Origin: a virus
Virus record (IMG/VR): IMGVR_UViG_3300037508_000116
Location: 1-24,191 of that record
Reading direction: 5' to 3' (one strand)
DNA length: 24,191 bases
Made by a program: the position numbers and the translations under genes
Part shown: positions 13,801 to 24,191 of the stretch, one piece after another
Layout of the letters: every line of letters starts with the position of its first letter
Position numbering within the stretch: position 1 is the stretch's first letter
Notes under the pieces: model-generated
Told to the model about the DNA's origin: nothing
Databases searched by the model: none
The model's input: only the letters and a program-made list of their open reading frames with translations

Positions 13801-15594
13801 ACTAGTCTGATCTCCTAGTATTTTTGAAGATTGCCCAGTTCTATTAAATACACTTTTAATATTAACAAAAAGTTTAATAATGTTAGCCAAACCATTAGCC
13901 AACAAACCGAAGGTCATTAAAAATATAGGTCCTATTCCACCTAATAAAGTAGTTAATATTACTACAAATTTCTTTGCGCCGTCGCTAAGATTATTAAACT
14001 TTTCTAAAACATTTCCTACAAATTCTACTATGGGAGTTATTGCCTTTAAAAATTCTTCTCCAACTGGTGCTATGGCTACCTTTAGATCTTCGATAGTTTT
14101 CTTAAACTTATAAGTTGTTGACTCTTCAACTCTTGCTAATTCTCTCTCTGAAAGAATTGCAAGTTCTTCAGTTGTTGCTTTAGTTAACTGAAGTACACGA
14201 CTTGCCTGGTTTCCCTCTTGAATAACATTTTGAAATAATGTTGATAAACGAGAAAATTGAAACTTTCCAAACAATTGTTCAATTGCACGAGCACGATTTA
14301 GTGGATCTAGGGTGTTTAATGCTTGAGCAAAATCTGTTACTACACCCTTAACATTGCCCTGGTTTCCTTCAACAATACCTTTAATATTAATACCCATTTC
14401 TGCCAACATAGCACTTGCTTTTTCTGTTGGATTAATCAAGGCTGCTAAACCAGACTTTAAGGCGTTAGCGCCCTCTGATGCGTTGATGCCACCTTCTTTC
14501 ATAGCAGTAAGGAAGAATGCTAGGTCCTCAACATCTCCACCTAATTGTTTAACAACTGGGCCTGCTTTAGGAATCGCAATAGTCAAATCTTCAATAGATA
14601 CAACTGTTTGGTTTTCAACAGAGTTTAAAAAGTTAATCTTTTTAGTCAAGTTTTCTGCTGATACAGCAAAGGCATCAGTTAAAGATATTGTTGTTTCTAA
14701 TGCCTGTTCTTGTTCAACTCCACCCAATACAGAGAGTCTAGTTGCTTCATTTATCTGTGCAAGAAGATCTGCACCCATCTTACCAGAAGCAGCAGCATCT
14801 GCTGCCATCTTCATAGTACTTTCAACACTAACTCCGTACTTGGTAAATTCTTTGGCAAGAAGTTTAATGTCTGTAAGCATCTTGTCAGTTTCTTCAGTAG
14901 TAGTAAATAATTCGCCGTAAACACGCTTAAATCTAATTGCCTGCTCTTCCATCGCCATAAATGTTTTTGCAGCAGTAGTGCCAAGCATGGTAAGTGGAAT
15001 TGTAAAACCAACCATTAACTGGCGACCAGCCCACTGAGTATTCTTACCGAAGTTCAACATATTTGTTGAGCCTTGCTTTAATAATTGATTAAGCAATGCC
15101 TGTCTTTGTGCAGCAATCTGTGTCTGTGTCCCAAGATTTTGCATATCTAATGCAAGTGGTCTAACTGCAATAGCCTTCATGGCGCCATTTGCATCACGGC
15201 CCATTTTTATATATTGTGTTTGTAAGTCTTTGACTCTTTCTCTTGCTACCTTATTTATGGTGTCAAATTCAGACTGAAAAAATTTACCAAATGTTTTTGT
15301 TGCTCCCATTGAATAGCGGTAATAATCCCGCATTGATAATTTGTTTTTTTCAAGGGAATTTGTAAAAGACTCAGTTGTAGTTTTTACATTTTGCATTGAG
15401 GCAGAGAATTTGCCTGTAGCATTTAAAGAGTTTATTAGGTTTTGTTGCATATTGGCGGAGACGGCTGCTGCTGCAGCGCCACTCTTCGCCATCGAGGAAT
15501 GGAAGGCTGATATCTGTTTTTGTAAAAGTTTGATACTGGCTAATGCTTCAGACGTATCTATATTTACGTGAATATTAGATTGAACATCAGCCAT
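7873..15594 (-). CDS. tail tape measure protein, unusually long
   Basis: The protein has 2573 residues. It sets tail length and is ejected ahead of the DNA. Residues about 190-500 carry the phage TP901-type tape-measure core (GRQLMVGFTIPLTMLGTTA, a long Ala/Ser/Glu helical run, then a GGINASEGANALKSGLAAL segment). Hydrophobic segments lie at about 535-580 and 1110-1180, and a glycine-zipper stretch at about 1350-1410; these could cross the host membrane. A Gly/Arg-rich linker lies at about 1065-1095. Coiled coil dominates 1965-2240. A polar Gly/Asn/Asp linker at about 2268-2340 precedes two 41-residue repeats. The motif GTD.(V/I)P.MLTPGE.V occurs twice (about 685 and 2495). The start has AGAGGTG ahead of ATGGCTGAT; an ATG four bases earlier in another frame meets a stop at once. 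Confidence 0.96.
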   Translation of the reverse strand: MADVQSNIHVNIDTSEALASIKLLQKQISAFHSSMAKSGAAAAAVSANMQQNLINSLNATGKFSASMQNVKTTTESFTNSLEKNKLSMRDYYRYSMGATKTFGKFFQSEFDTINKVARERVKDLQTQYIKMGRDANGAMKAIAVRPLALDMQNLGTQTQIAAQRQALLNQLLKQGSTNMLNFGKNTQWAGRQLMVGFTIPLTMLGTTAAKTFMAMEEQAIRFKRVYGELFTTTEETDKMLTDIKLLAKEFTKYGVSVESTMKMAADAAASGKMGADLLAQINEATRLSVLGGVEQEQALETTISLTDAFAVSAENLTKKINFLNSVENQTVVSIEDLTIAIPKAGPVVKQLGGDVEDLAFFLTAMKEGGINASEGANALKSGLAALINPTEKASAMLAEMGINIKGIVEGNQGNVKGVVTDFAQALNTLDPLNRARAIEQLFGKFQFSRLSTLFQNVIQEGNQASRVLQLTKATTEELAILSERELARVEESTTYKFKKTIEDLKVAIAPVGEEFLKAITPIVEFVGNVLEKFNNLSDGAKKFVVILTTLLGGIGPIFLMTFGLLANGLANIIKLFVNIKSVFNRTGQSSKILGDQTSYLTTEQLKASAVASSLNQVHTQLSQTFTSEIAALNALTSAYQRAIAAQRGFGGPVVGKNRKGFADGTKKVKPFYFAKGTDTVPAMLTPGEAVIPAGPAQDPRNKPAISHMIAGGVMQQFKVGTAGAGDFSHIGGMRTVGALDLANMLKRMPAGIISDRAMKAVEAVAMKFANTLKINLYGKLGITTGMSSQLDARGKPVSMNNLMKAGGRGVGKGEFMADWDKRGLDRWKISLRNGGMKMQDVAQDLAILDTHMKDYLTSLDSNTKITDVHVKQAYDHAKRQMGANNKLVQAFEQLALTAGEARINISQAAQKAAGLSTVAGGGSKGAVNVGGMKIRRGGDRFTFYKRTGFSLVDFAEKSMVEGMMERAQVASPSRVTKKVGGDIASGAIIGLKEYVDDARAAGQQLGAATVQGTQAQKAAASRAALYGTGPIDPAQKSLRRQLERQARLQELATKRAYQQSTITGFVAGGAGAGGNTGGGRNGGRGGFFGRFRKPTPADGSEPKQKMGMGGAAMGLSMAAAAGSMAPGKVGEVSQQLMMPLMVLSMLAMMPAKIAGVVAALGVLSYAIISTRMAFDKAQDSMMKLVESTASSSQSIMELSKFAGTVSAGEVMRRRRSEGLSPFDIKPGKTTFGESFVQSETGKATLSAVGQNIKAVGKKQAQADLTNQLVTGVISGSLTPAQARSIAGNIGRELGDYGFGIQVNAKLIELLGPNGENLIKDPLTIRVKMIEETRARAGLAAEKARSAGGINATGVRQIGGGALGGAAAGALAGAVVGSAVPIIGTALGAIAGGIIGGVAGGIIGGKERQRKIGEASGASVAMNKVALEQQQEMIDSLDLEYEKKIENARAAGNQAEAERLTNEYIKNRNALLLENGKTVTDIQTQFEKSRGATREALMTGVDKAITKKYKGTALEDVAPLAKTLIEDSGVSQEQQYTLKMQLATGNIDPMQLIDMMEMFGKDSKTLSKVINIIGKFGGTFANEVQGIASMFKNKKTAAKFIAEIETKSPEEARKHLDLFSDIAKVSNVLDIDVALKYYQENPKAAEKLQGIIDKINEQKGKISLEVAATILGTEEMEALRKDQEYFDSLDPVQQKVYLQTLTTIANLEGNNKEELENWLKQNPGKKPIDYYITSAQKVTQVSTDTTVGSKGGPSSGGGKVDSSPLDELVKKLRDVRKNQIKVTEGWSASRKVLDNLFGGKKKIDFFGGIEQDLTKLGAKGNFIELIVGMDPKEYEKRKNSLFKFDNKGNIVGLKKDAKTIQEALNSIVAGDFQSSLLRQQQELKDQAKAYNILREAGVGVAEAHELIADAAFAAMIASEGNSKSAKKLIDLYKKVQAEQKKTDAKKAVQQDIENAQKEIALRKTLESKRFSTIEQMAIMSDENLKEMAKNGQWGPAFQQRLQQIFDSIEFKESVFQNGFDKAMERFSAMEAKIEIDFQKTTMGDQDVIEKAQDKIAGLQYQIDDWEAQLVEIEDKEKDINDKYDARFEALDSLRSLNEQISRQQKGQLTLADALSQGDISAAARAAQDIRTQQASDALDAQQKSLEAAKENELANVRNTLGYTRAQIEDQIKGLRDKIFKIEEAELEPAQERVRIEEAKKRELIQSLTVLGKTRLEWEEQKNRIDLAKTASDEYTNAMKAALDIVEDIVKYWKSLEREFITTHRIITIYEGGSTGGSTGGNNGTPDGIPDNWDPSAIRKKDEDTSDDLPTSPITDNGKDKTNNGDGKANDGNKKDYTGRDVNGFTPYLNEAKSEYDKLVAKSLTPGTSPSDWGHALAAADQKVINAINLVDAKNDYNKKVTQSLSKGATPSDFGHSLAAADAKVINAANKVIASSTKANAEKAKADAAAKAKAAADLKKFGGNAIAASQFANWPSGKASGGLIKRFAVGGPVIGTDVIPSMLTPGEFVMSRYAVDSFGLDKMKAINNGTYSDASVYNYSVAVNVRSDANPEEIARAVMTQIKQVDSKRLRSNRI
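8305..8550 (-). repeat. two tandem 41-residue coding repeats in the tape measure
   Basis: Two directly adjacent units of exactly 123 bases (8428-8550, then 8305-8427 in reading order) encode 41 residues each. By eye 25 of 41 residues match, including YxKxV, the P-S-D-(W/F)-G-H core, LAAAD and KVINAxN. The units lie between a disordered Asn/Asp/Gly linker and an Ala/Lys-rich helix near the C-terminus. The drift in sequence shows that the duplication is not recent. Confidence 0.85.
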
Positions 15595-15616
15595 CCATTA
15601 ACACCTCTTTATTTAA

Positions 15617-15946
15617 TTAATTATTTACAAGATTTCCAACAAGAGATGCTGCTTCTGATAGTTTGATTCCAGAAGCCTCTTCTACAATCTTATAAACTGT
15701 TGGAAGATCTAAAATTTCTTCTAGAGCATCCATATCTTCTGATAACTCTGGCTTATATTGTTTCATTGCAATAGCAACGCATTCCATAAGTAGAGTCATA
15801 GACTTTTCATTATCGTCTGCCACTCCTGCGATACCCTCGAACTTCTTCATAAAAGGACGGAGTAAAGAGATCTTAAGTGGTCTTACTTTTATTTCTGTGC
15901 CATCAATTAACTTAATTGACTTTTCTTCGTGCACGGTTGTAGCCAT
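15617..15946 (-). CDS. short tail assembly chaperone
   Basis: The protein has 109 residues and lies immediately before the tape measure, where phages encode the G-type tail assembly chaperone. Its whole length aligns with the N-terminal half of the neighbouring 228-residue protein: shared MAT, LIDGT.I, PLKI..LR.FM..FE and a closing L.T.YKIV..A.GIK. It is soluble, helical and acidic. In well-studied siphophages this chaperone coats the tape measure and is not kept in the virion. A Shine-Dalgarno AAGGAGG lies four bases before the ATG and a TGGTATAAT motif lies further up, so it can be made from its own transcript. The ORF ends cleanly at TAA with 22 bases to the tape measure; no slippery heptamer or downstream T-like frame was found in it. 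Confidence 0.78.
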   Translation of the reverse strand: MATTVHEEKSIKLIDGTEIKVRPLKISLLRPFMKKFEGIAGVADDNEKSMTLLMECVAIAMKQYKPELSEDMDALEEILDLPTVYKIVEEASGIKLSEAASLVGNLVNN

Positions 15947-15947
15947 T

Positions 15948-15989
15948 AGTCCTCCTTATAAGGTTTAGTTAATTATACCATAAAGGACT
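15948..15989 (-). promoter_or_regulatory. extended -10 promoter inside a hairpin that pairs the Shine-Dalgarno
   Basis: On the minus strand TGGTATAAT occupies 15980-15972, an extended -10 form; transcription would start near 15965, about 19 bases before the ATG. The same interval can fold in a longer transcript: AGTCCT (15989-15984) pairs with AGGACT (15953-15948), and TTAT (15983-15980) pairs with ATAA (15959-15956), with a two-base bulge between. The second arm contains most of the AAGGAGG ribosome binding site. Read-through mRNA could therefore hide this site, while mRNA begun at the local promoter lacks the first arm. This is inferred from sequence only. Confidence 0.4.
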
Positions 15990-16676
15990 TTATTTTTTAG
16001 TTAAATCCTGATAGTCTAGTCCCATACCTATGCCAAACCCAGCCTTTTGTGCATTTATACCCTGTAAGGCTGTAATATCATTTGCATTTTGTGCCTTACC
16101 CTTACTAAATACTCTAGCCTTCATATCTTCCCAGGCATTGTTCTTTTTAGAGTTTTTGTCTAAATCTACACCCTGGATTGCTGCTAAAAATTTCTTTTCT
16201 GAATAATCTAACTCTCTTTTTATATTAAGTGTTGCTGTTAATTCTGGCATAGACATAGATGTTTCCAGTTCCTCATAGTCTTTCCATATACCGAGCAAAA
16301 ATACCTCAGATTCTAACTTTACTAAATCAAGATCCTCCCATGAAGCACCGCTATCTGTGGCCTGCTTTTTGACTTCTTCTTCTGATTCTTTGTTTATTTT
16401 TATACCTGCTGCAATATCTACAATTTTATATATTGTTTTTAAATCTATACTATCTTCTAAATCTTCAATAGTATTTATTTTTGGATAATATTGTTGCATT
16501 GTTATTAATGCACATCTTGCTAATGCTGCGATTGCTTCATCATCTCCATTTGATGATTTTACAGTTTCAAATTCTTGCATAAATTGTCTAAGATATTTTA
16601 TTTTTAGCGGAGTAATATATATTTGTGTTCCGTCTATCAAATTAATATATGCACTCTCATAAACCTCTGTAGCCAT
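15990..16676 (-). CDS. long tail assembly chaperone (G-like plus T-like domain in one frame)
   Basis: The protein has 228 residues. Residues 1-100 are homologous to the 109-residue protein downstream (LIDGT.I, PLKI..LR.FM, an M.QYYP segment, TIYKIVDIAAGIK). Residues about 115-228 are extra: SWEDLDLVKLESEVFLLGIW, a helical middle, and a tail ending KAGFGIGMGLDYQDLTKK. In lambda-type phages a long chaperone with an extra domain arises by a programmed frameshift; here the long form is continuous and the short form is a separate gene. The gene follows the tail tube gene and its terminator. No Shine-Dalgarno is present; a TGATATAAT motif places the expected transcript start on the A of the ATG, so leaderless translation is likely. 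The assignment rests on position, paralogy and size. Confidence 0.75.
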   Translation of the reverse strand: MATEVYESAYINLIDGTQIYITPLKIKYLRQFMQEFETVKSSNGDDEAIAALARCALITMQQYYPKINTIEDLEDSIDLKTIYKIVDIAAGIKINKESEEEVKKQATDSGASWEDLDLVKLESEVFLLGIWKDYEELETSMSMPELTATLNIKRELDYSEKKFLAAIQGVDLDKNSKKNNAWEDMKARVFSKGKAQNANDITALQGINAQKAGFGIGMGLDYQDLTKK

Positions 16677-16682
16677 ATAATT

Positions 16683-16691
16683 ATTATATCA
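16683..16691 (-). promoter_or_regulatory. extended -10 promoter giving a leaderless chaperone mRNA
   Basis: TGATATAAT reads on the minus strand at 16691-16683, directly after the tail-tube terminator. Six bases separate it from the ATG at 16676, so the expected start base is the A of that ATG. No ribosome binding site lies before the gene, which fits a leaderless start. No convincing -35 lies at 16-19 bases; the extended TG may replace it. Confidence 0.55.
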
Positions 16692-16696
16692 AACAG

Positions 16697-16731
16697 AAAA
16701 GCCCAGCCTTTTCAAATATGACTGGGCCTTC
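16697..16731 (-). terminator. rho-independent terminator after the tail tube gene
   Basis: On the minus strand AAGGCCCAG (16730-16722) pairs with CTGGGCTTT (16706-16698) across a 15-base loop: nine pairs including one G-U, with a GC-rich core, followed by a short U run and a further CTGTTT. It lies 16 bases after the stop of the tail tube gene and just before the chaperone promoter motif. It would keep tube mRNA high and chaperone mRNA low. The plus strand has no U run on its side. Confidence 0.75.
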
Positions 16732-16746
16732 TGATATTAAGTTGTA

Positions 16747-17367
16747 TTATGCTGGGATAGTACGATCTACGATCTTACCATACGAAGCAGCGTCATTTGG
16801 AAGAAGGCGGAATGAAACTTCAAACATTGTAGCCTCATCACGCTTTGCAGATACAGTTACATTCTCAATTGAGAGTGCACGGTATGCTACATAAACTCTT
16901 TCAATCTGATCCGAAGCAGCACATTCTCCAGTTCCTGGACCAACCGCTACCAAACCACGCTCGACTGGGCATTCGCCGATGTCTCCTGCAGAAAGGTTTA
17001 ATGTTGGGTTGCCTGAGACTGTTGTCAAATCGCCATCGCTGCTTGCAAGTGCGAAAAGAAGATTCTCAAGTGTTGACTCAGCAAATGTAGTATTTAGGTT
17101 AACCTGCATACCTTGCTTGTACAACTTAGCAACGTCAAGAACCTGGTCTACCTGCACTTCACCGAAGTCAGGCTGGAATTGAATCTCAAGACCATTCATT
17201 GTGTAACCAACGTTACGGAAGTCTGCGTGATCTTCAAGGGTATCCTTGTAAGATGTGCCTGCTACGTACGCTGGTAAATCACCATCAGCAAGTACGCCGT
17301 CCTCATATGTGAAGAGAGCGGCAGCACCAACGATAATGTTATTGCTTGTACCACGAGTATAAGCCAT
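16747..17367 (-). CDS. major tail tube protein
   Basis: The protein has 206 residues and lies between the tail terminator and the chaperones, the standard location of the tube subunit. The sequence reads as a beta-barrel: the start MAYTRGTSNNIIVGAAALFT, then YTMNGLEIQFQPDFGEVQVD, QGMQVNLNTTFAES, a Gly/Cys-containing loop region at about 120-150, and a closing IENVTVSAKRDEATMFEVSFRLLPND. This pattern of a GLEI.F.P...EV..D strand followed by a C-terminal sandwich is typical of siphophage tube proteins, which stack as hexamer rings. The gene has a good ribosome binding site (AGAGGTG), its own downstream terminator and a hairpin upstream, as expected for a very abundant protein. Codons look somewhat more GC-rich than in the tail tip genes, as in the capsid gene. 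Confidence 0.85.
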   Translation of the reverse strand: MAYTRGTSNNIIVGAAALFTYEDGVLADGDLPAYVAGTSYKDTLEDHADFRNVGYTMNGLEIQFQPDFGEVQVDQVLDVAKLYKQGMQVNLNTTFAESTLENLLFALASSDGDLTTVSGNPTLNLSAGDIGECPVERGLVAVGPGTGECAASDQIERVYVAYRALSIENVTVSAKRDEATMFEVSFRLLPNDAASYGKIVDRTIPA

Positions 17368-17397
17368 TTATTTCACCTCTTTATTTTTCTAGAAATT

Positions 17398-17436
17398 AAA
17401 AGGCGTGTTTCCTCATTGATAAGTATACAGCCTTTT
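17398..17436 (-). terminator. hairpin between tail terminator gene and tube gene
   Basis: On the minus strand AAAAGGC (17436-17430) pairs perfectly with GCCTTTT (17404-17398) over a 25-base loop. The first arm overlaps the TAA stop of the 17435-17959 gene. The U stretch is part of the second arm and continues only as AATTT, so it may be a weak terminator or an mRNA-stabilising hairpin. Confidence 0.45.
17422..17427 (-). promoter_or_regulatory. weak -10 candidate for the tube gene
   Basis: TATACT reads on the minus strand inside the loop of the hairpin at 17398-17436. Transcription would begin near 17415, and the resulting RNA would lack the first hairpin arm. No -35 and no correctly placed TG were found, so support is thin. 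The main argument is that a highly expressed gene flanked by two hairpins should have its own promoter. Confidence 0.25.
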
Positions 17437-17959
17437 ATGAAAGGATTTCTGTGTCTTGATGATAATCATAATCAATAATAATCTTATTTCCAGCATAAGT
17501 CCTAGCAGTACCAAAGTCTACTATATCTCGTGCCTCTTCTAGATGGTATATCTTAAAGTTATGGAAGAAGAATTTACACTGTAATTCTTCACCCTCAACC
17601 TCTATTGTTTTTCCTCTAGCCCATGAGTTTATTTCTTGAGCCGTTTCATCGCCACGATCCATAAATCTTAAGACGGCTTCTTGAATTTTAATCATAGTTA
17701 TGTTTGGTTGTGATCCAGAAGCATAAAAATAATATAGTATCTGCTCACATCTTATGTGTGGAAATGGACCTCTACGCATTCTAAACATTCTGTCCCAAAC
17801 TGCCATAGACCCCTCTTCTGGAAATTGTGTCTGAAGAGTTTCTATTGTTGACGGCCCTGTTGGAAAAAATGGAACAACAATGTCTGCAAAACCCTCTATT
17901 TTTTCTTTTAAATATGTATTAATCCATAAAACTGGTGTATTCAATAAAGATACTGACAT
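17435..17959 (-). CDS. tail terminator protein
   Basis: The protein has 174 residues and lies last in the neck block, directly before the tail tube gene, the expected place of the tail terminator that caps the tube and joins it to the head. It is alpha/beta in pattern: an N-terminal helix (TPVLWINTYLKEKIEGFADI), a strand with VVPFFPTGP, then RRGPFPHIRCEQILYYFYA and a helix IKIQEAVLRFMDR. The C-terminal half has strands CKFFFHNFKIYHL and NKIIIDYDYHQD. The PxxPHI.CEQILY.FYA stretch resembles siphophage tail-completion proteins that I have seen described as type-1 neck components. The start shares a base with the upstream stop (TAATG). The assignment is by position and general pattern. Confidence 0.65.
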   Translation of the reverse strand: MSVSLLNTPVLWINTYLKEKIEGFADIVVPFFPTGPSTIETLQTQFPEEGSMAVWDRMFRMRRGPFPHIRCEQILYYFYASGSQPNITMIKIQEAVLRFMDRGDETAQEINSWARGKTIEVEGEELQCKFFFHNFKIYHLEEARDIVDFGTARTYAGNKIIIDYDYHQDTEILS

Positions 17960-18633
17960 TATCTACCAACTCCTGCATTCGCTATCCAGCGATATCCTGT
18001 TTCATAGCCTTTTGTTTTTCCGCCACGCTTACCAGCGGATAAATTCTTTTTATATGCTATTGGATTTTCTAAATATTTAGCAATCCCGCTAACTCTTAAA
18101 AATGCCTGTGTAAAAAATCTATTAAAAAATGAATCAAATACTTTTTCAAATCCACCCTGCACTGCATCTCCTCCAGGGTTTAAAACTTCAATTGGTTGTC
18201 TTGTAAATATTGTTTCTCCATTTATCTCAAATGCCAATGCCTGTGCTCTTTTAGGAATAATAGTAACTGGAATTCCTTGTTCCATAATTCTAGCCTTATC
18301 ATAAAATGGAACACGTGATCCATTTTTAATAGATGTTGACTGTTTAAATGTTGATCTAAAAGAAAGTCCTATTTGACTTGTTACATATTGTATGTCAAAT
18401 AATCTAGAATTTGGGCTTCCTGTCTGATTCCATTCATAAATATGGTGAAGCATTTCTGGATTAACTCTAGCATTTGAATCTATATACTCTTTCATTAGTT
18501 CTACTGTTTCTAGTCCAATAGTATTCAAGAATGCTTTTTTACCGCCTTGAATTCCCTCAACATATCCAACAGAATAATCTATAATGTTTTTCATGTCTTT
18601 ACGAAATGCAGTGTTGTTGAATACAACTCTCAT
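17959..18633 (-). CDS. neck or head-tail joining protein (HK97 gp10-like)
   Basis: The protein has 224 residues. It lies between the stopper and the tail terminator, where many siphophages encode a gp10-like joining protein. The N-terminal 70 residues are helical with an F...GKKAF....GLETVELMKEYID segment. The middle has GLSFRSTFKQS and PFYDKARIMEQGIPVTIIPK, and then ALAFEINGETIFTRQP, which resembles the glycine-bordered strands of this family, including the FT(R)QP..VLNPG turn. A basic C-terminal tail (KKNLSAGKRGGKTKGYETGY) may contact DNA or a neighbour. It starts inside the stop of the preceding gene (ATGA). The ribosome binding site is weak, so translation is likely coupled. Confidence 0.65.
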   Translation of the reverse strand: MRVVFNNTAFRKDMKNIIDYSVGYVEGIQGGKKAFLNTIGLETVELMKEYIDSNARVNPEMLHHIYEWNQTGSPNSRLFDIQYVTSQIGLSFRSTFKQSTSIKNGSRVPFYDKARIMEQGIPVTIIPKRAQALAFEINGETIFTRQPIEVLNPGGDAVQGGFEKVFDSFFNRFFTQAFLRVSGIAKYLENPIAYKKNLSAGKRGGKTKGYETGYRWIANAGVGR

Positions 18634-19079
18634 ACATCTACCGCCTGATTTTCAGATCTGCGAAGAACAAGTTTATAATACTCTACATTTCCAAATGGTC
18701 CCGTAAATGGATCTTGTGTTGCTATTTCAAATATTGTAGACTTTCCTGCACGTGGTCCAGAGGTTTCTAAATAAATTTCATTACAATTTTTGTCTTTAAT
18801 ATTTGTGATGATAACATTGGTTACAGAATTTCTTGCTTCAAGACTAGATATTCTTATATCTGTTTTACATCTTCCAAGTAACAATTTATCTTGCGTAATA
18901 TTAATATTTGGAGTTACCTCTTCTTTAAATGCTGTTCCTGCTGAAGTGAACGAACATGCAATTGTTCTGTCTAGTATCCAAGTCTTTTTAACATTTCCAT
19001 ATGCGCCCTGCTCAACAATTGGGTGATATACGTCTGCTTGCATAGGAAATGCGAAGTCTGGAGTTTCGCATATAACCAT
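18630..19079 (-). CDS. head closure (stopper) protein
   Basis: The protein has 149 residues and is the second gene after the head-tail connector, where the stopper that holds packaged DNA normally lies. It is beta-rich: an N-terminal ADVYHPIVEQGAYGNVKKTW, then DRTIACSFTSAG, a disordered-looking middle, DKLLLGRCKTDIRISS, VTNVIITNIKDKN, and a C-terminal strand YYKLVLRRSE. The pattern of a strand with D..R.I.CSF, then a (V/I)(T/N).(V)(I/L)(I)TNI strand, is typical of phage head closure proteins. The start shares a base with the connector stop (TAATG), and the stop overlaps the next start by four bases. No conserved catalytic residue is expected for this structural role. Confidence 0.65.
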   Translation of the reverse strand: MVICETPDFAFPMQADVYHPIVEQGAYGNVKKTWILDRTIACSFTSAGTAFKEEVTPNINITQDKLLLGRCKTDIRISSLEARNSVTNVIITNIKDKNCNEIYLETSGPRAGKSTIFEIATQDPFTGPFGNVEYYKLVLRRSENQAVDV

Positions 19080-19957
19080 TATAGTACCCCGACGAACTCA
19101 ATCGGTTTGCGATATTTATCAAGTATCTTGTCTACAATTAAATTGCCAGTACCTTCAAATACTGCTCTATCAAACTGAATTCTAAATTGATCTGTATTAT
19201 AGGCACCAATATAGCGCTTATAATAATCTAACTTACCACAATCGATGTCATGAATAAGTAACTCTGTTGCCCTTACAATATCAGATGGCACCTTGCTATA
19301 TCCTACTTCTAAAACAACCGTATAGTCCCATGTTTTTGGAAATCCTCGTGCAGAATAATCAAGTTCTGTAATATCTGTTGGTGAGGCTGGCAATAAAATA
19401 CGAGCAGACTCATCTCTATTTATTGCATCATTAAATGTCATAGTGATTGCAGATCCATCTGGAATAATCTCAAATGCTGAAACAGAATTTTCTAAATCAT
19501 CTGCATCATAAAGCAATACATTATTTTCATAAACCTTTAAAACTTTTTTAGCATCTACCCAAATAGGAAGATAATCTGTGCCTTGACCTGTTGTTTGAAT
19601 TATTTTTTTCTTGTAATAAAATTCTACATCACATACAGAGTCTATAATTGCTCTGGCTAATTCTTCATTAGAAGCATAAGTTAAAACTTCACTGGCTGTA
19701 GTTCCGTGATCATTTGGATTGATGTATGGACGAACTACATCAATAAAATATTCATCTCCGTCAATTTCTATTTTATATTCTGTATCATATTTTGAAGATA
19801 GTGGTATTACAACTTTTGAACTTGCATTAGAAGTAATTGAACCCTCTACAACTGAAGAGTCCGCCATATCTGTAATAGTATAATCATATTCTGTGGATAC
19901 AGATCCAACATCTAAAGTTACACTTAAATTATATGGCGGTACTCTCAGAATTTGCAT
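19079..19957 (-). CDS. head-tail connector (adaptor) protein with N-terminal beta domain
   Basis: The protein has 292 residues. The last 75 (VPSDIVRATELLIHDIDCGK and the following LDYYKRYIGAYNTDQFRIQF segment) match the helical adaptor protein, which attaches to the portal: a helix with an IVRAT..LI.DI motif, a linker, and a C-terminal VDKILDKYRKP helix. This adaptor core is usually only about 100 residues long. Here about 200 residues of beta-rich sequence precede it (PYNLSVTLDVGSVSTEY, SSKYDTEYKIEIDGDEYFID and more), a marked enlargement. The N-terminal part may be a neck ring or fibre anchor. The stop of the upstream gene is directly adjacent to the ATG, and an AGGAG lies further upstream. 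Confidence 0.72.
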   Translation of the reverse strand: MQILRVPPYNLSVTLDVGSVSTEYDYTITDMADSSVVEGSITSNASSKVVIPLSSKYDTEYKIEIDGDEYFIDVVRPYINPNDHGTTASEVLTYASNEELARAIIDSVCDVEFYYKKKIIQTTGQGTDYLPIWVDAKKVLKVYENNVLLYDADDLENSVSAFEIIPDGSAITMTFNDAINRDESARILLPASPTDITELDYSARGFPKTWDYTVVLEVGYSKVPSDIVRATELLIHDIDCGKLDYYKRYIGAYNTDQFRIQFDRAVFEGTGNLIVDKILDKYRKPIEFVGVL

Positions 19958-20443
19958 TTAGCGACCAAACTCCTTGGCTACTTCTTCTGGAGTAGCGAGT
20001 CTAATATGGCTACGCTCTAACCACTTTTCTGCTTGCTCTGGTGTAACAATGTTATATCCACGATATACCTTGCCGACTCCAGACCAACTTACATTCTTTG
20101 TAGAATGAATGGCAACTGTTTTATTTGATTTCTTAACAACAGTAGATGGCTTTTCAACCTTGCGCTCTACATGTGTTACTCCAATCACACCGTTGGCAAC
20201 CTGTCCAACAGCCTGTGCTGTATTTGATCCTCTAGCAAAGTCTGATGTAGTAATTGCATCTGTAGTTTCTGCAGCCTCAGTTACTGAAGCCTCAAAATTA
20301 TTTTCTGCTGCTACCTCTTCCACCTTTGTTTCTGGCATAGGAGCGTCCACAACTGCCTCATCAACAATTGGTGCTTCTACTGGAGCCTCTGGAGCAACAA
20401 AATTTTCTACTGGTGTCTCATTATTAAAATTATTTTCTTCCAT
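19958..20443 (-). CDS. small acidic head-region protein
   Basis: The protein has 161 residues. Residues 1-65 are low-complexity and acidic with many Glu, Ala, Val and Pro (for example PEAPVEAPIVDEAVVDAP), similar in composition to the acidic part of the scaffold domain. Residues about 108-161 are a compact basic-to-mixed domain: VAIHSTKNVSWSGVGKVYRG, YNIVTPEQAEKWLERSHIRL and ATPEEVAKEFGR. Similar C-terminal domains are found in other phages beside the capsid gene; I know no proven function, and it may be a minor head or portal-region factor. It starts the cluster of neck genes. It has a strong ribosome binding site (AGGAGG, then TAAAATA) and its own extended -10 just after the capsid hairpin. 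Confidence 0.7.
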   Translation of the reverse strand: MEENNFNNETPVENFVAPEAPVEAPIVDEAVVDAPMPETKVEEVAAENNFEASVTEAAETTDAITTSDFARGSNTAQAVGQVANGVIGVTHVERKVEKPSTVVKKSNKTVAIHSTKNVSWSGVGKVYRGYNIVTPEQAEKWLERSHIRLATPEEVAKEFGR

Positions 20444-20457
20444 TATTTTACCTCCTA

Positions 20458-20473
20458 TGTGACTATTATAACA
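20458..20473 (-). promoter_or_regulatory. extended -10 promoter for the neck operon, TGTTATAAT
   Basis: TGTTATAAT reads on the minus strand at 20473-20465, 12 bases after the capsid terminator arm. Transcription would start near 20458, just before the AGGAGG of the 161-residue gene. No -35 is evident. The motif has the same TGnTATAAT form as three others in this window. Confidence 0.55.
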
Positions 20474-20485
20474 GAATACTAAAGA

Positions 20486-20524
20486 TTAAGAGGGGGAGGA
20501 GAACTAGCCCCTGCCCCCTCTCAA
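20486..20524 (-). terminator. hairpin after the major capsid gene
   Basis: On the minus strand TTGAGAGGGGG (20524-20514) pairs with CCCCCTCTTAA (20496-20486), eleven pairs with one G-U. The loop can itself fold by AGGGG pairing with CTCCT. A strong U run is missing (TTAATCTTTAG), so termination may be partial. Its position 17 bases after the capsid stop matches the role seen for the tube-gene terminator. Confidence 0.65.
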
Positions 20525-20541
20525 AGGTTACTGATTACAGA

Positions 20542-21669
20542 TTATGCATCTGCAGCAGCGTCTGCCCATGCAATAGCGTCTTCTTCTTCCCATTGAATAC
20601 CGAAGCGAACGAACACAGTATATTCAATTGTGTCCTTCTTAGCAACATATTCACGGTTGACGACGATATCACGCTGGAAGCCCCATACACGGTTCTGTGG
20701 GAATGTCAAATCGACATATCCTTCAGGGTAGTAAGGAACTTCTTGGACATCAATTCCGAGAACACGAGTTGTACGTGCTCCACCGAATGTTTGGCCTTGA
20801 CCATCAAGGTATGCCTGTGTATTTGCATAGGTATTACCATTCTTGCCAAGTGCCTCAGCGATTGCATCAGACAATGTACCGTTATTCTTAACGATACCTG
20901 CGAATGCATCTGTACCTGCATAGAACTTAAGATTATTCTTAAGTGCACGATACTTACGTGGCATTGCAAGGATAATTTCCTGCATCTTTTCTGGAGTCCA
21001 TGCGTTGTCAGCAACTGTTACGGCTGCTTCATGTGAATCTCCATTGTCCTTGTGCTTCTTGATGAAGCCAGGCATGATTGAAAGGAATGGACCTGTTGTT
21101 CCATCTCCATTGATAGCAAGATCCTCAATATCGTTAGCAAAAGCATTGGTCATCAAGCGAACGAGATGATCTTCCAATGCACCTCCTTCGACATTGTCTT
21201 CAAGTGCTTCAGCAGAAACTTCCCAATCAAGACGAATTTTCTTGGTTGTAAGTTCTACCTTTGAGAATGTAGCACCAGTGTTTGTGTAGTTACCAACTGC
21301 CTGAGCAGCAGCACGAATAACACGCTCACCAACGTTAATCTTCTCTAGTTCCATACTGTTTGCTCTCATGGTCACACGACGACCATCTTGAGCAAGAATG
21401 GTTGCATCCCAAACATAATCGATAAAACGACGTGCCTGTTCAGGACGTAAAATTCCGCTTGCAGCATCACCCGAAGGATTTACGGCATTAGGACCAGTGG
21501 TTACTCCAAAGTTAGCATTTGGGATGTTACCAAGTGTATCTGCACCTGGATCTGTTACACCACCAACACCACCTGAAGCAAAAGCGCCTTGACCTTGATA
21601 AAGACCTGGTGCTGTTCCGCCTAGTTCGCCAGTTTCTCCTGGCTGGTTTTTCTTAATCTCTTCCGACAT
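20542..21669 (-). CDS. major capsid protein
   Basis: The protein has 375 residues. Residues 1-75 form a Gly/Pro-rich, probably flexible N-arm (LGGTAPGLYQGQGAFASGG and more), then LRPEQARRFIDYVWDATIL opens the fold. Recognisable HK97-fold features follow: a RVIRAAAQAV strand-helix, KVELTTKKIRLDWEVSAEAL, a peripheral LINxxxTNAFANDIEDLAINGDG helix and turn (here MTNAFANDIEDLAINGDGTT), a TPEKMQEIILAMPRKYR helix, LKFYAGTDAF, VLGIDVQEVPYYPEG, and a closing WGFQRDIVVNREYVAKK strand. The shell builds from this subunit. The site is TAGGAGGTGA with seven bases to the ATG, a near-perfect Shine-Dalgarno. The gene follows the protease and scaffold by 23 bases and ends at a hairpin, consistent with high expression. 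Confidence 0.93.
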   Translation of the reverse strand: MSEEIKKNQPGETGELGGTAPGLYQGQGAFASGGVGGVTDPGADTLGNIPNANFGVTTGPNAVNPSGDAASGILRPEQARRFIDYVWDATILAQDGRRVTMRANSMELEKINVGERVIRAAAQAVGNYTNTGATFSKVELTTKKIRLDWEVSAEALEDNVEGGALEDHLVRLMTNAFANDIEDLAINGDGTTGPFLSIMPGFIKKHKDNGDSHEAAVTVADNAWTPEKMQEIILAMPRKYRALKNNLKFYAGTDAFAGIVKNNGTLSDAIAEALGKNGNTYANTQAYLDGQGQTFGGARTTRVLGIDVQEVPYYPEGYVDLTFPQNRVWGFQRDIVVNREYVAKKDTIEYTVFVRFGIQWEEEDAIAWADAAADA

Positions 21670-21692
21670 ATTGTCACCTCCTAAGTGATTAC

Positions 21693-22259
21693 TTAATTAA
21701 ATAAGTCGGCTGTTTTGAGGAAACGTCCGCCCCATAGGGATTTTTCAACCATTTCTGGTTGTTCCTGTACGATCTCGCCTAGATCGCCAGACTTTCGGAA
21801 AGCGGTATCTGCTTCTACTGCATCAACTCGCTTACCAAACTTATCTACTTGTTCAACTGTTGCAGCAATGTCTTTGGCGACTGCATCAAGTGAACTCTTT
21901 ACTGCTGCTGTATCAACCTTTGTAGACTTAAGCATTTCTACTTCTGCCTGCAAAGATTTTACAGTTTCAACTAAATCGCTAAAGGCTGATGTAATTGTAT
22001 TCTTGATTTCTGCAACTGCTTCAACAATCGCTTCATCTGATTTAGATACTTCTGTAGCAACTTCTGCTGCTAGTGCTTCAACTGTTTCTTCAGCCTTTTC
22101 GACTACTTCTTCAGTCTGTGCAACTTCTTCAGTAACTGGAGCCTCTTCAGACTTTTCAGCAACTTCTGCAACAGGAGTTTCAACTACGGCATCTGCCTCT
22201 GGAGCGATCTCTTCTGACTTAATAACTTCGACTTCTTCAGTCTTTGTCTTTTTTGCCAT
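21693..22259 (-). CDS. nested in-frame scaffold protein
   Basis: Inside the protease gene, in the same frame, an ATG at 22257-22259 (MAKKTKTEEVEV...) is preceded by AAGGAGG at 22274-22268 with eight bases between, the best ribosome binding site of the head block after the capsid one. It would make a separate 188-residue protein comprising only the scaffold region: an acidic Glu/Ala/Val run, a coiled coil (TVKSLQAEVEMLKS) and a second helix (VEQVDKFGKRVDAVEAD). Lambda C/Nu3 and Mu I/Z use the same design, in which the scaffold is an internal in-frame product of the protease gene. The nested start falls exactly at the linker between the protease and the coiled region. Confidence 0.72.
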   Translation of the reverse strand: MAKKTKTEEVEVIKSEEIAPEADAVVETPVAEVAEKSEEAPVTEEVAQTEEVVEKAEETVEALAAEVATEVSKSDEAIVEAVAEIKNTITSAFSDLVETVKSLQAEVEMLKSTKVDTAAVKSSLDAVAKDIAATVEQVDKFGKRVDAVEADTAFRKSGDLGEIVQEQPEMVEKSLWGGRFLKTADLFN

Positions 22260-23009
22260 AGGATTATCCTCCTTGTTAATCTTAGCATCAATGCCTTTAG
22301 CACTATCTACTAAGAATTTGACTATATCCATTTTTTCGTTGTCTTCTTTTTCAACGAAACCTATATTCTTCATCGTATTACCAGTCACTGGACTTGTAAC
22401 TGATTCTTCATCTGAAACCATAACTAGTCCAGATTCCTCATCGTAAAAAACATTTTCAAGCGCAACATCTTGACCTTTAACAACTTCAATACCATCAACT
22501 TTTTCTACATGCATAATGTTTGCAAATTGATTTGCTGGTGAGTCTACTAATGATAATTCAACAAGATCATAATCTTTAATAATTCTAATTGTGGAATCTG
22601 ACTTCTCATCATAACCATCATCCCATTTATTCATTCTTCCACCAATTGAAAATCCTGTTAATGTACCGTCCAAAACTTTTTCCCATGTATCTTGTGCACC
22701 CTTAGAAACATATGCTGACACAAAAACTCCAGAATAAAACTTTTTAGATTCTGGATCAAAATATCTATCTTCTTTAAAGTTAACCATTTTGCCAACCGCT
22801 AGTGGCTGATGCATTTCACGAATGTTTCCACGAAACTTTGAAAATGCTTTCATTGATGCCTCTGCGGTAACTATATCGCCTTGCTTATCAATGTTATCAA
22901 GAGATGCAAAGCCAGAGACGATACGTCTCTCCTTATCAACCTTCGCAAATGGAAGGGAAAGCCTTACTGATTCTCCATCGGTATCCCAATGGGCTTTAGA
23001 TATAGTCAT
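21693..23009 (-). CDS. capsid maturation protease with fused scaffold domain
   Basis: The protein has 438 residues from ATG 23007-23009. Residues 1-165 are an XkdF-like (S78-type) prohead protease: RRIVSGFASLDNIDKQGDIV, EMHQPLAVG with a probable catalytic His67, GTLTGFSIGG with a probable nucleophile Ser121, and YDLVELSLVDSPAN with acidic residues near 151-156. Residues about 250-400 are an Ala/Glu/Val-rich, coiled-coil scaffold-like region. The C-terminus ends SLWGGRFLKTADLFN. In this family the protease trims scaffold and shell proteins. An earlier TTG at 23042 would add 11 residues, but it would lie in the promoter spacer and lacks a ribosome binding site, so ATG is preferred. The -10 lies 10 bases before the ATG, so translation is likely near-leaderless. 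Confidence 0.86.
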   Translation of the reverse strand: MTISKAHWDTDGESVRLSLPFAKVDKERRIVSGFASLDNIDKQGDIVTAEASMKAFSKFRGNIREMHQPLAVGKMVNFKEDRYFDPESKKFYSGVFVSAYVSKGAQDTWEKVLDGTLTGFSIGGRMNKWDDGYDEKSDSTIRIIKDYDLVELSLVDSPANQFANIMHVEKVDGIEVVKGQDVALENVFYDEESGLVMVSDEESVTSPVTGNTMKNIGFVEKEDNEKMDIVKFLVDSAKGIDAKINKEDNPMAKKTKTEEVEVIKSEEIAPEADAVVETPVAEVAEKSEEAPVTEEVAQTEEVVEKAEETVEALAAEVATEVSKSDEAIVEAVAEIKNTITSAFSDLVETVKSLQAEVEMLKSTKVDTAAVKSSLDAVAKDIAATVEQVDKFGKRVDAVEADTAFRKSGDLGEIVQEQPEMVEKSLWGGRFLKTADLFN

Positions 23010-23019
23010 ACTAGTATAT

Positions 23020-23049
23020 ATTATAGAGCCTTTTTTACACAAATGTTAA
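23020..23049 (-). promoter_or_regulatory. promoter of the protease-scaffold-capsid operon
   Basis: On the minus strand TTAACA (23049-23044) and TATAAT (23025-23020) are separated by 18 bases, one mismatch to the housekeeping consensus. Transcription would start near 23013, leaving about four bases before the ATG at 23009. It is the best -35/-10 pair seen in the window. It lies in the gap after the portal gene and overlaps two DnaA-box-like sites. Confidence 0.6.
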
Positions 23050-23075
23050 TAAATTGTGTATAAGGTTGTGGATAA
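23033..23075. other. cluster of DnaA-box-like 9-mers
   Basis: Within 43 bases the minus strand carries TTATCCACA (23075-23067), TTATACACA (23063-23055) and TTATTAACA (23052-23044), and the plus strand carries TTTTACACA (23033-23041). The first is the classical strongest DnaA box, and the second and fourth fit TTWTNCACA. The third has one mismatch and overlaps the -35 hexamer. Three same-strand copies are spaced by 12 and 11 bases. All lie in the gap between portal stop and protease start, free of coding constraint. The consensus is established knowledge; DnaA binding here is inferred. Confidence 0.5.
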
Positions 23076-24191
23076 CTAAGAAGTTGATCTTCCCTCTCCC
23101 TTTGGATTTCTTCCACTAATTGTGGCTTCTCCATCGGACTGATTGTTTAGTCTTTCTCCATCCCTAGCCCTTTCTGAATTATCTTCTGGCTTAGGGCTAA
23201 ACGGCTCATCTCCTCCTTCCCTCTGGGGTAATCCAAGAACAGATCTAGCCTCATTTGGAAGCATAACCTGAGTTTTGACATATCTTTCTAATATTTGAGA
23301 TTGAGCGATTTCGTCTGTAAGGGTTAGTTCTTTAAATTTTAAGACAAGAACATCTGTTTTTTCCTTAACTATCTTGTTAATAATTTTTTCTAATTCTCTT
23401 TGTGCTGGCCTAGAGACTTGTTCTTTAAATGTACGATCTTGCGCTAATGCTGCTGCAATTGATCCAGAATCTCCTCCACCTATTTTTGATAACGGGACCT
23501 GATGTGCAATTAAAACATCATCACGATTTTGCTTGCGATATTTTTCAAACGAGCCTTCTTGGACACCATTCTCGATTGGCTCCATCTTGAATTCAACTTT
23601 ATTACTATCGCTATCTCCAGGAAGCGGAATATACAGAGTTCTGTGTGATTGGCCCTTAAGCCCAGTCTGCAAAAATCTAAACATCTTATCTTCAGCATCA
23701 GCAGATAGACGAGCACCCTTTAGTGTCACAACATAACGAGGGACAGCCTTATTGCTAAAGTAGTCAATGTTATATTGTGACGCTAATTGGTCTCCATGGA
23801 GCGAGTTTATTGCCGACATGATATCTGGGACACCATAAAAAGTATTTAAAGGCGAATACTGTTTAAAGTGTATAATCTCATTAGGCCTTGGATCAGACGT
23901 AACTGGATTAGCATTTTTTGCCCCAAAATTTCTAAAATATACAACTTTACTTCCAATAATTTGAACATATCCATCACGCAATCTACGAACACGCATTGTT
24001 GTTGCTGGAATATGTCCTACATAGCCAATCTCTCCACGAGTTGTTCTTCCAATCTCAAGATATCCATTTCCTACAGCCTGAACATCTGTATAAACCTTCA
24101 TCATTGTAGTTGTAAAAGAATCATCATCATTTAAAGATTCAAGCCATTCGTGCATTTCAATTTTTGCACGTTCAATTCTATTTCTTGCTCT
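23076..24191 (-). CDS. portal protein, N-terminus outside window
   Basis: The frame is open to the window edge; 371 residues plus the TAG stop are seen. An ATG at 24155 is internal, since 12 codons before it (RARNRIERAKIE) continue the frame. The sequence matches PBSX-family portals: a helix MHEWLESLN, then VQAVGNGYLEIGRTTRGEIG with RRLRDGYVQIIG, then IIHFKQYSPLNTFYGVPDIM, NIDYFSNKAVPRYVV, and a basic RKQNRDDVLIAHQVP segment, ending in a disordered, charged C-terminus (GRNPKGEGRSTS). The portal forms the dodecameric ring through which DNA enters and leaves. The terminase genes would normally lie just beyond the high-coordinate end of the window. Confidence 0.93.
   Translation of the reverse strand, partial: RARNRIERAKIEMHEWLESLNDDDSFTTTMMKVYTDVQAVGNGYLEIGRTTRGEIGYVGHIPATTMRVRRLRDGYVQIIGSKVVYFRNFGAKNANPVTSDPRPNEIIHFKQYSPLNTFYGVPDIMSAINSLHGDQLASQYNIDYFSNKAVPRYVVTLKGARLSADAEDKMFRFLQTGLKGQSHRTLYIPLPGDSDSNKVEFKMEPIENGVQEGSFEKYRKQNRDDVLIAHQVPLSKIGGGDSGSIAAALAQDRTFKEQVSRPAQRELEKIINKIVKEKTDVLVLKFKELTLTDEIAQSQILERYVKTQVMLPNEARSVLGLPQREGGDEPFSPKPEDNSERARDGERLNNQSDGEATISGRNPKGEGRSTS

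Follow-up and report, generated by a model that had tools for sequence, protein, structure and literature searches.

The 66-base non-coding gap between the portal and protease genes of the window (the whole stretch of viral DNA analyzed here, 24,191 nucleotides, which is also the full length of its own record) is read here as a sigma-70-type, near-leaderless promoter of the protease and capsid genes, internal to the head cluster and provided with a putative DnaA-box operator, a reading that we hold with about even confidence. The array is best explained by control through DnaA or another protein of like specificity, because the sites are non-random, are retained in relatives with a degeneracy typical of DnaA boxes, and lie on a conserved promoter. 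The preliminary description of this DNA had suggested that host DnaA, or a phage protein with a similar site, could time the transcription of the late head genes; the conserved sites on the promoter speak for this, while binding and timing are deductions from the sequence. The sign of control, the titration discussed below, and the identity of the host are likewise what we infer, and the sequence is compatible with either activation or repression.

The portal–protease gap and its promoter

The portal, protease, and capsid genes were assigned with Pfam and PHROGs. The features of the gap and its surroundings are as follows.

23076–24191, minus strand: portal protein gene, incomplete at the window edge, upstream of the promoter
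23067–23075, minus strand: DnaA box 1, TTATCCACA, a strict consensus match; TT(A/T)T(C,a,t)CACA in relatives
23055–23063, minus strand: DnaA box 2, TTATACACA, a TTWTNCACA match; TTAT(T,C,A,G)CACA in relatives
23044–23052, minus strand: box 3, TTATTAACA, which matches a DnaA box weakly and includes the −35 hexamer TTAACA (23049–23044)
23033–23041, plus strand: opposing box 4, TTTTACACA, weak, within the −35/−10 spacer
23020–23025, minus strand: −10 element TATAAT, invariant among box-bearing relatives (0 changes)
23010–23019, minus strand: 10-nt stretch from the −10 element to the ATG
21693–23009, minus strand: head maturation protease gene (phrog_9427, E 1.1e-114), the first gene downstream of the promoter
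20542–21669, minus strand: major capsid protein gene, following the protease gene

The gap (23010–23075) runs from the portal stop to the protease ATG (23009–23007), in agreement with the size and borders given in the preliminary description. Its account of three boxes in the same orientation, with start-to-start distances of 12 and 11 bases, and of one box on the other strand also proved correct at every position. Box 3 has one mismatch to TTWTNCACA and two to TTATCCACA. The promoter (TTAACA at 23049–23044, an 18-nt spacer, and TATAAT at 23025–23020) scored 11/12 and ranked first of 32 promoter-like sites in a scan of positions 15000–24191 (9.2 kb), so that within the scanned part box 3 covers the −35 element, and the opposing box occupies the spacer, of the best promoter, as had been described. 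TTWTNCACA boxes are therefore found at and next to a promoter, the arrangement expected of DnaA-regulated promoters. Since only 10 bases separate the −10 element from the ATG, the transcript is probably leaderless or nearly so, and since the portal gene lies upstream on the same strand, the promoter is located inside the head cluster.

Conservation of the boxes in related phages

Loci of relatives were collected by three IMG/VR scans (protease, portal, and capsid), and the portal–protease gap was taken from 198 loci, 119 of which were distinct after a length filter. The box class comprises 41 distinct gaps, 40 with at least one strict TTWTNCACA; in the gap of L006, which belongs to this class, all three boxes read TTATNAACA, outside the DnaA consensus. 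Box-bearing relatives mostly keep the same register, with box starts 50, 38, and 27 bases before the −10 element, and in L028 and L029 a strict box, TTTTCCACA, occupies the place of the third box. These two loci have an additional box-like stretch, TTCATCCACATAG, overlapping the end of the portal gene. Neither a forward box nor an inverted match occurs in 73 of the 119 distinct gaps, and six more have no forward box. Gaps outside the box class keep the −10 element and differ in their upstream part; the boxless types include short gaps with a TGAGA −35 region, 58-base gaps with TGTCC-N4-TGTCC direct repeats of 9-base period at the head promoter (L206, L196, L121, and others), and two gaps with TTTATAACATG repeats at the same promoter (L100 and L102). 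The TGTCC-N4-TGTCC motif was also seen in a block of short leftward genes in box-bearing phages (L258: 10183, 13199, 14462, 15495, and 18432).

On a tree of 600 bases of one gene (the N-terminal codons of the protease), the presence or absence of boxes required 8 parsimony changes, a lower bound, compared with 33.6 for shuffled labels, which indicates that the boxes track lineages, yet have been gained or lost repeatedly. Because other clades and the Streptomyces relatives keep the promoter without the boxes, the promoter predates the boxes, and the latter are an added module rather than an essential part. The preliminary description had regarded loss of the sites in close relatives with retention of the promoter as evidence against DnaA control; in many relatives the promoter is indeed present without boxes, which counts against the reading given here.

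The footprint left by selection was assessed as parsimony changes per alignment column, again lower bounds, on the same protease tree with only the 40 taxa of the box class retained. Of the 36 changes inferred for boxes 1 and 2, 29 fall at the W and N of TTWTNCACA (positions 3 and 5), while the remaining 14 positions account for 7 changes together and the CACA is nearly invariant. Position 3 changed nine times in box 1 and three times in box 2, always between A and T; position 5 changed four times in box 1 and 13 times in box 2, the latter box having only 4 changes over all its other positions. The spacer columns beside the boxes show 7–18 changes each, and the six −10 columns none. TTWTNCACA is the Escherichia coli DnaA consensus, obtained from the binding of purified DnaA (PMC5835720), and it may differ from that of the host. 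The footprint, which is comparative, is the strongest evidence for binding by a protein of DnaA-like specificity. The comparison of this gap in related phages, proposed in the preliminary description, thus revealed two upstream boxes under selection with DnaA-type degeneracy on a conserved promoter, within the box-bearing clade only. Part of the conservation of box 3 must be attributed to promoter constraint, because this box resembles the −35 region of the boxless clades.

The ligand of the array and the sign of control

Host DnaA is probably the ligand of the array, and the simplest reading, judging from the sequence, would be host DnaA acting on a host-sigma promoter. Candidate regulators encoded by the phages were searched for as DnaA domain IV, MraZ, WhiB, and sigma-70 region 2. 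WhiB is encoded in 13 of 13 large relatives, and points to an actinobacterial host, WhiB being treated as a marker of such hosts in an actinophage paper (PMC10202952). DnaA domain IV (PF08299) was above the cut-off in none of 16 large relatives, whose records may be fragments, with a sub-threshold match of 32 residues (E 0.02) in G010. Sigma-70 region 2 (PF04542) was likewise found in none of 13 large relatives at E 0.01, again in records that may be fragments, and the consensus promoter therefore probably uses a host sigma factor. A phage-encoded MraZ was not detected. DnaA has been described as autoregulatory in Streptomyces lividans and mycobacteria, which makes actinobacterial DnaA a plausible transcription factor.

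We favor early repression by DnaA because of the precedent of E. coli nrdAB and because the strong boxes lie upstream, whereas the weak ones lie over the −35 element and the spacer. DnaA would first occupy the two strong boxes, 1 and 2, immediately before the −35 element; with plentiful ATP-DnaA, binding would then spread to the weaker box 3, which overlies the −35 element, and to the opposing weak box in the spacer, so that the −35 element is masked and head-gene expression stays low at the start of infection. Every new copy of the phage DNA would bring further boxes and dilute the DnaA pool, which would free the promoter or leave only the upstream boxes filled, the state that activates nrdAB; the output of the head genes would then follow phage DNA replication. 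The titration step assumes certain numbers of DnaA molecules. Exact TTATCCACA occurs 6–10 times per genome in four relatives compared with 1.3–2.2 expected, some copies being within genes. By analogy with nrdAB, repression lifted by titration seems possible, at somewhat less than even chances. The wider proposal, that the host initiator serves a clade of actinobacterial phages as the timer of the head operon, so that DnaA diluted by phage copies counts capsid production against genome copies and no late regulator of the phage is required, is more tentative and rather doubtful as a whole.

In the main rival reading, DnaA is the ligand but would act chiefly as an activator, which from boxes 1 and 2 holds RNA polymerase at the promoter and raises rather than delays the head genes. 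Strong boxes upstream with weaker ones overlapping the promoter have been described for nrdAB, and DnaA stimulates transcription at ori-lambda via the beta subunit of RNA polymerase (PMC8203912); moreover, L064, L095, and L044 keep both upstream boxes without box 3 and the spacer site. The near-consensus −10 and −35 elements (11/12), however, seem to need little help, and box 3 over the −35 element is retained in most box-bearing relatives, so that we regard predominant activation as unlikely.

Unlikely, too, is binding by a phage-encoded regulator with a DnaA-like site, whose specificity would vary by clade. Different phased repeats do occur at the same place elsewhere (TGTCC-N4-TGTCC in the 58-base gaps, TTTATAACATG in L100 and L102, and the threefold TTATNAACA of L006), but boxes 1 and 2 vary at positions 3 and 5 in just the way that the DnaA consensus allows, and these genomes carry paired TTATCCACA at further sites as well, both of which speak against such a regulator.

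In the relatives, paired boxes recur mainly at two places besides the gap. Site B is non-coding and conserved, and combines two DnaA boxes with an AT-rich stretch and GTGGAG repeats of 10-base period; it was found at L258:5677–5810 (G004), with counterparts in L233, L235, L238, L239, L242, L249, L253, and L297, the last being a Bacteroidota-labelled MAG contig that is presumably a mis-binned phage contig; in L280 the GTGGAG array is present without boxes. A 26-base form of this array has an exact match just upstream of mraZ in a deltaproteobacterial MAG (L298; MraZ E 7.7e-30), and a scan of genome contigs for the GTGGAG array matched only L297 and L298, and thus no actinobacterial host genome. 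Site B may be a phage MraZ operator, a decoy, or an origin; no title on phage MraZ operators came up in a literature search. Site C lies inside the block of short leftward genes, and G004 also has a facing TTATCCACA pair at 18383 and 18408. Perfect TGTGA-N6-TCACA palindromes, which resemble operators of the CRP/GlxR type, were observed in G004 (L258: 16262, 18363, and 18563), with similar ones in G001, G002, and G007; there are 2–4 per genome against 0 for a control palindrome, most of them near sites C and D. G002 has 60-base repeats at 695 and 123228, near both ends of its 123,487-base record, which are perhaps the terminal redundancy of the assembly.

The preliminary description had also considered a phage origin in the gap and proposed GC skew as a check. 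Clustered DnaA boxes are typical of origins, but no skew switch occurs at the gap in the window or in G001, G002, G004, and G007 (the gap of G007 lies 1.5 kb from its record's end), conservation is highest in the columns of the promoter core, and site B is the better origin-like candidate in the relatives. The gap sequence has no AT-rich unwinding element or iterons beside the boxes, which are the only repeats seen. An origin at the gap was rejected on GC skew and anatomy, and we consider it highly improbable.

With respect to random scatter, which had been named as an argument against DnaA control, the number of single sites in the window is ordinary (5 TTWTNCACA found and 4.2 expected, the ones outside the gap, at 2899 and 18107, being both within genes), but the tight clustering is not: of 1500 windows simulated with a second-order Markov model, 1 contained three sites within 43 nt and 12 contained two. 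Fifteen of 16 large relatives carry the pair TTWTNCACA-N1-5-TTWTNCACA, at 26 places altogether, and the reversed pair pattern had no match in the same 16. Chance resemblance in an AT-rich promoter region, although lone sites are as common in the window as expected, is contradicted by the cluster probability, the lack of reversed-pattern pairs in 16 genomes, and the position-specific conservation, and can practically be dismissed.

Comparison with known systems

Among annotated isolates, the Stanwilliamsviridae Streptomyces phages Karp, Blueeyedbeauty, Samisti12, and BillNye share the gene order portal, protease, capsid, with homologs of all three genes, and in Karp, Blueeyedbeauty, and BillNye a −10-like element lies shortly upstream of the protease ATG. 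They differ in that all four, like Rhodococcus phage Trina, carry an additional gene that separates portal from protease, whereas Francob has no annotated gene there; no TTWTNCACA array was found in the portal–protease stretches inspected of these six phages.

A role of DnaA as transcription factor is already known for host genes and for the replication region of phage lambda. A search of open-licence literature returned, in the text available, no report of a DnaA-box operator on a phage structural operon, which is weak evidence of novelty, and a search on DnaA and phage promoters gave nothing relevant, subscription journals being mostly outside its scope.

The gap site would be, by analogy, most like E. 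coli nrdAB. According to PMC8203912, one of the three DnaA boxes of nrdAB is specific for ATP-DnaA and the other two show no nucleotide preference; low DnaA levels or ADP-DnaA activate the operon, and high levels of ATP-DnaA repress it, presumably because RNA polymerase is kept off. The likeness consists of three boxes at a promoter, where DnaA at nrdAB can either activate or repress; the difference is that nrdAB is a host gene (the ribonucleotide reductase operon) and the gap would serve a phage head operon. The same source describes stimulation of the ori-lambda/pR region of phage lambda by host DnaA, again a phage using host DnaA in transcription, which for the gap phages is a proposal; there it concerns an early/replication region and here the head genes. 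In phage T4, late genes are coupled to DNA replication via the gp45 sliding clamp (PMC2988020, abstract). The tie between late genes and DNA replication, proposed here, is shared, but T4 uses its own clamp as activator, whereas the proposed link would consist of the host initiator and its binding sites. If this holds, conserved DnaA boxes serving as operator of the structural genes would give these phages, in whose large relatives neither sigma-70 region 2 nor DnaA domain IV was detected, a simple means of coupling late genes to replication through a protein of the host.
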